Shown here: in pieces, positions 28,101-29,872 of the stretch | Layout: each line of letters opens with the position of its first letter | Numbering within the stretch: the stretch's first letter is position 1 | Assembly (NCBI RefSeq): GCF_038396675.1 | Contig: NC_088933.1 | Coordinates: forward strand, 34,186,501-34,250,500 | Reading direction: 5' to 3' | Source: Hydra vulgaris | Lineage: Eukaryota > Cnidaria > Hydrozoa > Anthoathecata > Hydridae | DNA length: 64,000 nt | Notes under the pieces: model-generated | Seen by the model: the letters and a program-made list of their open reading frames with translations, nothing else | What the model was told of the DNA's origin: nothing | The model's database searches: none | Position numbers and translations under genes: made by a program

Positions 28101-29872
28101 CAGTGGTGTGAAAAATATTAAGACCACCAAGAAAAAAAGCTTTTTTTTTAGTTTATACCACTTTTTAGATTCTAAAAAAGTTGCAGCACTACTTTATTTT
28201 ATTATAAACGTGCTGTGGGTGTGGCTGAGTATTGAAATTATTAATTTTAATTTTAATTTATTAACTTTTATTGTAGAGTTATGTGTTTTAGTAAACATTT
28301 GGTATATTTTGCCTTGTGAAATGTAAGTTGCAGACAAGTGAATATGTATGGTTCAAACGAACTATAAGTGATTTTTGTTAGATTATTGCTGTTGTTAGTG
28401 ATACAGTTTAATATTTTTCTGATTTTAAATATGTGATTTTGATTATTTAAGCATTTTTTTTTGTCAGATTATATTATATTTTCAAAATATGGGTAAAGTT
28501 GCTGACCCTAGTCCCAGAAAGCGAGGCAAAGTTAAAGCATTATTAAAGTTGGAAACATTTTCACAACGGGAAATTGCCAAGAGATGTGGACTAAGTAAAA
28601 CAGCAGTTTTTAGCATCAAGAAACGATTGGACTTTGGTTTTACATCCTCTCCAAGACGTTCCACTTCAGGACGAAAACCAGTCATGACGCCACGTGCAAG
28701 AAGGGTTCTGCTTGCAAACGTTCGAAAAAACAGAAGAATGACCAGCAAGCAGCTCCAGGGTGTGCTGCAGGAGCACCAGATCAATGTCTCAACAAGTTGT
28801 GTTCGGAGATGGCTGATACAAGATGGATTTGTAGCACGTCGACCGCGCAAAAAACCGCTCTTGACCAATGCTCAACAAATGCGACGGCTGCAATGGGCCA
28901 TGGATCACAAAGATTGGACCACAGAACAATGGAGAAAGGTATTTTACCCTTTACCATTTTTTATATAAGAGCTTACAATCATGTACTTTAAGTTGAAGCA
29001 AAATGTAACATATTTTTTCATATAATAATGATGTTTAATATCATTACCCACTAGTGCAATTGTTTTATGTATCGAACATTGTAGCAATGGCTATGTTTAT
29101 TGCATGAATTCAAAATGAATTGAACATGTAACCAGTGATTACAGGATGTTAATCTAATGTAAGCTCAAGGCTTTTACAGTGTGTTTGTATTTTTAGGTTT
29201 GCTTTAGTGACGAGTCTATGTTCGAGATACTCGATGATAAATGTCAGTACGTGCGCCGTCGTTCTGGGGAAGAATTTCATCCGCAATGTCTGGTAAAGAC
29301 CGTCAAGCATCCTACCTCAGTAATGATATGGTCAATGATAAGTTCCCATGGTGTAGGAGCCCTTAGAATTGTTGAAGGCAGAATGAATCAACATCATTAC
29401 ATCAACATATTAGAGAAAAGCCTTCTACCTCAACTTCCAATTCATTTTCCTGATGGTGATTTCATCTTCCAACAAGACGGTGCACCGTGTCATCGGGCAC
29501 TCTCTGTTACAAACTTTTTGAATCGTAATAATGTTCCTATCCTACCATGGACTGGTAATTCACCTGATATGAACCCGATAGAAAACTTGTGGATGATAGT
29601 CAAAAAGAGAATTGCCGACAGAAAACCAACAACAAAAGTCGCATTGATTGAGGCGCTCATAGAGGTTTGGACACATGATCCAGAAATACAAGACATGTGT
29701 CCAAGACTGATTGATGGAATGCCTAAGAGGGTTGAAAAACTTATTGCAGCTAGAGGAGCATCCACAAAATACTGAACTATGCCCATTTTATGACATTGTG
29801 TGCGTGTCTTTAAAGGAAATATTCAAAAAATTTACTTTTTCAACAATGGTCTTAATAATTTTCACACCACTG
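28101..29872 (+). mobile_element. Apparently intact Tc1/mariner transposon with an intron (1,772 bp)
   Basis: Terminal inverted repeats of about 26 bp start CAGTGGTGTGAAAAATATTA (left, 28101) and, in reverse, CAGTGGTGTGAAAATTATTA (right, ending 29872). TA flanks both sides, although it lies inside a TA array, so the duplication cannot be proven. It contains one two-exon transposase gene with no stop or frameshift. Confidence 0.93.
28489..29775 (+). CDS. Tc1-family transposase, DD34E, two exons, 342 aa
   Basis: Exon 1 is 28489-28938, the intron 28939-29196 (GTATTT donor, TTTTTAG acceptor), and exon 2 29197-29775. Splicing joins QWRK to VCFSDES in frame. Domains: a first helix-turn-helix (residues ~20-45, [20 protein letters not shown]), an AT-hook/GRPR-like linker ([13 protein letters not shown], ~65), a second helix-turn-helix (to ~120), then the DDE core with D155 (FSDES), D244 (FQQDGAPCH) and E279 ([11 protein letters not shown]), with 34 residues between the last two. 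The length of 342 aa is normal for Tc1. All catalytic residues are present. It would excise and insert its own element at TA. The unspliced message would end at residue ~159. Confidence 0.93.

Follow-up and report, generated by a model that had tools for sequence, protein, structure and literature searches.

A complete copy of a recently multiplied, intron-bearing Tc1-like transposon in Hydra vulgaris

Structure of the element and its transposase

Positions 28101-29872 of the window, the 64,000-nt stretch of Hydra vulgaris DNA analysed here, hold a complete copy of a recently multiplied, intron-bearing Tc1-like element. It is a DD34E transposon of 1,772 bp whose coordinates are exact at both ends, and no further copy of it was found elsewhere in the 64,000 nt. 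The features of the element are listed below, with positions in the window.

28099..28100, unstranded: TA target-site copy, left, within (TA)31 at 28039-28100
28101..28126, plus strand: left terminal inverted repeat, 26 bp, 25 of 26 bases as in the right end
28323..28467, plus strand: possible second intron or trans-splice acceptor in the 5' leader, with a donor-like GTAAGT and a strong acceptor, TTTTTTTTTGTCAG, 21 nt ahead of the ATG
28489..28938, plus strand: exon 1, residues 1-150, DNA-binding half, with HTH_Tnp_Tc3_2 at residues 71-142
28939..29196, plus strand: intron, 258 nt, GTATTT..TTTTTAG, phase 0, 72% A+T, between K150 and V151
28966..28968, plus strand: stop codon reached if the intron is kept, product of 159 residues
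29197..29775, plus strand: exon 2, residues 151-342 and stop, catalytic half, with DDE_3 and the match to SB100X
29209..29211, plus strand: codon of the first catalytic residue, D155, 12 nt into exon 2
29476..29478, plus strand: codon of the second catalytic residue, D244
29581..29583, plus strand: codon of the catalytic residue E279
29847..29872, minus strand: right terminal inverted repeat, 26 bp, 25 of 26 bases as in the left end
29873..29874, unstranded: TA target-site copy, right, within (TA)36 at 29873-29944

The first-pass annotation, made from the letters of the DNA, had described near-identical inverted ends, a two-exon transposase free of stops and frameshifts, and a complete set of DD34E catalytic residues. 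All three descriptions agree with the present results. The two ends differ at a single base of 26. The segments 28489-28938 and 29197-29775, when joined, give a frame that starts at 28489, is free of internal stops and encodes 342 residues. The catalytic triad consists of D155, D244 and E279, with a spacing of 34 residues between the last two. Two Pfam domains were found in the transposase, HTH_Tnp_Tc3_2 (E 2.7e-16) and DDE_3 (E 1.5e-13), and residues 118-342 match the catalytic domain of Sleeping Beauty SB100X with an E-value of 8.8e-41. The element is thus placed in the Tc1-like (DD34E) branch by the spacing of its triad, its inverted ends flanked by TA, the combination of a paired-like helix-turn-helix with DDE_3, and its homology with SB100X. 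A target-site duplication of TA in the strict sense is blurred by the TA arrays that surround the element.

No second binding site was detected inside the element, where the best match to the ends had 11 mismatches and lay within the range given by 200 shuffles. Scans of the window with Rfam (at gathering scores) and for tRNA genes gave no match. Among viral contigs eight pattern matches were obtained, none of them to a relative of the transposase, and no such relative was present in the phage records.

Copies in the genome

The genome searched comprises 911.5 Mb in 15 contigs. The DNA search gave 152 first-look candidates, of which 40 were scored, and all counts out of 40 copies given here rest on these. 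Each of the 40 matches the element from end to end at 99-100%, one of them without the last base, a degree of agreement that excludes chance; they are spread over 13 of the 15 contigs. The termini were also counted across the genome. The first 29 bases occur at 51 places in the genome and the last 29 bases at 57 (at most one mismatch in each case), while the reversed-pattern control gave none for either end. These ends form 47 pairs, 46 of which span 1,742-1,785 bp and one 1,208 bp; four left ends and ten right ends were unpaired at the threshold of one mismatch. The genome-wide pairing of termini revealed no swarm of short derivatives (MITEs). The family consists of about 46 full-length copies. 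The 46 full-length pairs correspond to the 40 scored copies together with six of eight near-identical copies (L067-L074), namely those having both ends; these eight, and one partial copy (L063), stand outside the 40-copy counts.

A genome-wide comparison of copies had been proposed in the first-pass annotation, with divergence and inactivity of all copies as the outcome that would refute its reading. This outcome did not appear. The mean pairwise divergence among the 40 copies is only 0.38%, and the spliced frame is intact in 35 of them. All three catalytic residues are retained in 39 copies, and 34 copies combine the full triad with an intact frame. These near-identical, intact copies at distinct sites mark the family as an autonomous one that was amplified recently.

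Some information on the course of the amplification can be obtained from the substitutions that separate the 40 aligned copies from their majority sequence. Their number ranges from 0 to 14, with a mean of 3.4 per copy and a variance of 8.8, and four copies at separate sites are exactly identical to the majority sequence. A variance larger than the mean suggests that the moves were spread over time more than a single pulse would give, and the amplification therefore appears, from the sequences, to be both recent and stepwise. The copy in the window carries three private substitutions, all of which change an amino acid (residues 16, 42 and 217), and two of these fall in the DNA-binding half. 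The earlier suggestion that the element is possibly still active is thus favoured for the family, by its intact and near-identical copies, but not for the window copy itself, which carries these three replacements. A search for empty sites among the fetched loci returned only low-complexity TA matches.

Among the young copies, the rate of change in the intron, 1.3 changes per kb per copy, does not exceed those in the exons (2.6 and 1.7). Nonsynonymous change is little constrained in these copies (pN/pS 0.69), as expected of decay that follows insertion.

It is useful to compare these copies with an older subfamily, which is about 88% identical to the young one in DNA. Between the two subfamilies there are 13 fixed synonymous differences in about 228 sites and 13 nonsynonymous differences in about 801 sites, corresponding to a dN/dS of about 0.28 (Fisher P 0.0014); the count makes use of 11 old copies, three of which (L056-L058) are near-copies of one another. 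The codon pattern indicates that the coding sequence was kept under constraint between the subfamilies. The density of fixed differences is 1.8% in exon 1, 3.1% in exon 2, 3.7% in the intron, 6.1% in the 5' leader and 9.9% in the 3' untranslated part. Since exon 2 differs almost as much as the intron, it is the codon test and not the density that carries weight, and the contrast between intron and exons would by itself prove little.

The intron

The position of the intron agrees with the first reading of the sequence, which had placed 258 nt between K150 and V151, just ahead of the first catalytic aspartate. The segment begins with GT and ends with AG, lies in phase 0, and is followed after 12 nt of exon 2 by the codon of D155. 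It had also been proposed that only the DNA-binding half would be made if this segment were kept. The frame does end at 28966-28968, and the resulting product of 159 residues has the helix-turn-helix region but lacks every one of the catalytic residues.

All 40 young copies have both the donor GT and the acceptor AG, as do all ten readable copies of the old subfamily, in which the intron measures 246-258 nt, the variation being due to a 12-nt gap close to the donor. An eleventh old copy, L062, was considered as a naturally intronless form and rejected, as a plain deletion has removed the ends of the exons as well.

Among more distant relatives, L076 and L077, a family with 47% protein identity, have a phase-0 intron at this very codon boundary; it measures only 90 nt and reads GTAAGT..TTTAG. 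This is the strongest single item in favour of the intron. In L080 the donor is kept, and the acceptor has been lost together with the first catalytic motif by deletion. Five further relatives (L078, L079, L081, L082 and L083) read straight through this position and have no intron. These relatives are a sample, the protein search of the genome having scored 118 of 24,136 candidates. In a tree of 11 sequences, which took in only relatives from the Hydra genome and SB100X, the distribution of the intron requires two changes. This tree does not reject one common origin of the intron (p-AU 0.125 with SB100X and 0.245 without it), but does not demonstrate it either. Taken together, the sequences suggest that the clade has had the intron for a long time and did not acquire it by a recent accident.

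The intron is judged to be probably real because the frame joins across GT..AG, the splice sites persist, the coding sequence is constrained, and a family of 47% identity has an intron at the same boundary. From these evolutionary comparisons, the presence of a functional intron appears well supported.

The 5' leader may contain a second processing site. The sequence of 28323-28467 suggests a leader intron or a spliced-leader acceptor. Among the ten old copies that allowed both motifs to be located, all keep the acceptor and five keep the donor. Spliced leaders are reported on about 30% of Hydra transposon Iso-Seq reads (PMC12220107).

Target sites

TA flanks are found on both sides of 36 of the 40 copies, the window copy included. 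In 31 of the 40 the target TA lies inside an uninterrupted array of (TA)10 or longer. The background for this figure is local, being taken from the window and from the outer flanks of the copies. Such arrays contain 9.1% of 6,710 TA steps in the part of the window that lies beyond the element (binomial P 7e-25), and in the outer flanks of 39 copies the value is 18.2% of 7,055 TA steps (binomial P 6e-16). The proportion is lower among six further full-length copies, three of which lie in (TA)10 or longer, and it is two of five for the old-subfamily copies with both ends.

The window contains 23 uninterrupted runs of at least 10 TA units, and 21 of these do not adjoin the element. As arrays evidently occur without the element, the simplest interpretation is that it inserted into ones already present. 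A preference for palindromic AT repeats is reported for Sleeping Beauty, ZB and Bari (PMC7913693). The preference of the Hydra family for (TA)n would appear to be an extreme of this known Tc1 preference, expressed in a genome rich in arrays.

TA arrays seem to be shared between the element and several repeats. A LINE-like fragment at 23200-25260, with an RVT_1 domain, ends shortly ahead of a long (TA)n array. The element itself sits in the (TA)n array that follows another fragment, at 25400-27950, which is LINE-like by eye and whose open frame 27179-27949 gave no Pfam match. A TA-array-rich repeat at 30124-30600 recurs in the flanks of L011, L016, L020, L023 and L041, and a second repeat, about 770 bp long, is found next to L017, L027, L029 and L033.

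Proposed mechanism and alternative explanations

It is highly probable that the window copy is a full-length member of an autonomous DD34E Tc1-like family that was amplified recently and in steps, and that carries an old, spliced intron. The element would be transcribed by the host, and its 258-nt intron would be removed by the spliceosome. By homology, the paired-like helix-turn-helix half of the 342-residue transposase should bind the 26-bp ends, and the site formed by D155, D244 and E279 would cut the element out. Reinsertion would occur at TA, mostly inside (TA)n arrays, as the target preference of the copies suggests. RNA that keeps the intron would give only the 159-residue DNA-binding protein.

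Some alternative explanations should be considered. The family could have been amplified recently and be silent now, either through small-RNA silencing or through loss of its source, in which case the intact copies would be relics that have not yet had time to decay. This is a real possibility, although we lean against it. The copies are a static record, and the four that equal the majority sequence place the latest transpositions in the recent past without being able to show that the family moves now; in addition, PIWI-piRNA control of transposons is described for Hydra stem cells (PMC12220107). Against silence speak the staggered ages (variance 8.8 versus mean 3.4) and the 35 of 40 frames that are still intact, and TcMar-Tc1 elements are listed as putatively active and expressed in Hydra, although that entry concerns the whole class and not this family (PMC12220107). 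It is much less credible that the 258 nt always stay in the RNA, which would make the element effectively dead or restrict it to the DNA-binding half. A search for a spliced copy of the family in the genome, with the 30-nt exon junction and at most two mismatches, found none, but such a copy is not expected of a DNA transposon. The exact joining of the frame across GT..AG, the splice sites in ten of ten readable old copies, the intron of another length at the same place in the distant family, and the constraint on coding sequence between subfamilies all argue for splicing. A spread of the copies by segmental duplication instead of transposition is extremely improbable. Several copies do have host repeats in common in their flanks; however, these common flanks lie on different sides of the element and at different distances from it. 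Moreover, in 39 of the 40 copies both boundaries fall exactly at the inverted repeats, 36 copies have TA on both sides, and the 40 occupy 13 of 15 contigs.

Returning to the autonomous family with a spliced intron, the question arises whether the intron has a regulatory role. As a conjecture, a built-in inhibitor would be consistent with the anatomy of the element. If the intron is kept, a stop is reached after 4-5 codons in ten of ten old copies and after 20 codons in the distant family (L076 and L077). This early truncation is weak evidence for an inhibitor, since a stop would soon be met anyway in an intron with about 70% A+T. In a more elaborate form of the idea, the intron would be a conserved self-limiting switch: a product of about 155-160 residues would occupy the ends and block the transposase, with full splicing only in some cells, for example the interstitial stem cells. 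Such a switch would resemble that of the P element, would be of independent origin, and would predate the split of the families compared here. We regard this as unlikely.

Comparison with known systems

CAGT-type ends are typical of Tc1-like transposons. Sleeping Beauty, ZB, Bari and Tc1/Tc3 resemble the Hydra element in having such ends, a TA target, a paired-like helix-turn-helix combined with DDE_3, and the DD34E motif. The catalytic domain of SB100X is 36.8% identical to that of the Hydra element over the aligned residues. In comparison with the DD34E Tc1-like systems, the Hydra element is distinguished by its intron, by 26-bp ends with no detected inner site, and by its strong use of (TA)n.

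Introns are also present in nematode Tc1 and Tc3. The TLEWI elements of molluscs are Tc1-like elements described as having 3-5 spliceosomal introns in the transposase gene (Puzakov and others 2020, cited in PMC10379824). The likeness to the Hydra element would lie in an intron within a Tc1-like transposase gene, which in Hydra is a putative one, recognized by sequence as a conserved GT..AG segment. They differ in their hosts and in the number of introns, the Hydra element having one coding intron; this comparison is based on their description in the citing paper. Intron-bearing Tc1-like elements were thus already known, and the Hydra family appears to add one more.

In the Drosophila P element, retention of the third intron is reported to give a 66 kDa repressor (PMC7776569). 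In both elements, the shorter protein encoded by RNA that keeps the intron still includes the DNA-binding domain. However, the P element belongs to an unrelated transposase family, and regulated retention, which has been shown for P, is conjectural for the Hydra element. As for the target sites, (TA)n arrays are reported to flank about 74% of the members of the two main MITE families of pineapple (PMC8449440). Ac-mMITE and MuTAnT, as described, share the association with (TA)n, but they are Mutator-like elements of plants, and those of pineapple are non-autonomous.

Searches of open-licence PubMed Central papers brought up no account of this family or of its intron. Names of the Mariner-16_HM type come from Repbase. 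The family may already be catalogued among the named Hydra mariner entries, such as Mariner-16_HM and Mariner-18_HM (PMC7325037).

A young, intact and intron-bearing family in a budding animal is of interest because the activity of a transposon could be traced in separate stem-cell lineages. It would also allow one to test whether an intron restrains a cut-and-paste element. The occurrence of an intron at the same boundary in families of 47% identity, beside others without an intron, provides an example of how introns persist in mobile DNA or are lost from it. If the family proves to be ordinary, it would still show clearly a recent burst of a Tc1 element, with TA arrays as the main place of insertion.

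Other elements in the window

The other elements of the window, nearly all of them broken according to the first-pass annotation, were surveyed in part, by eye, through their open frames and with Pfam. Two decayed Tc1-like elements of another kind, at 21420-22850 and 42080-43650, have similar ends as judged by eye; of this pair only 21420-22850 matches the transposase of the studied element, weakly and in two frames. On the minus strand, an open frame of 221 residues at 822-1487 matches DDE_3 (E 5.9e-29) and represents the catalytic end of another transposase of the same superfamily. Also on the minus strand, a BED finger and a hAT dimerisation domain are found at 36936-38879 in two adjacent open frames, as in a hAT-type transposase gene that is interrupted between them. 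Finally, an open frame of 324 residues at 48362-49336 contains a rhodopsin-type seven-transmembrane receptor domain (E 5.9e-37) and is probably a receptor gene of the host.
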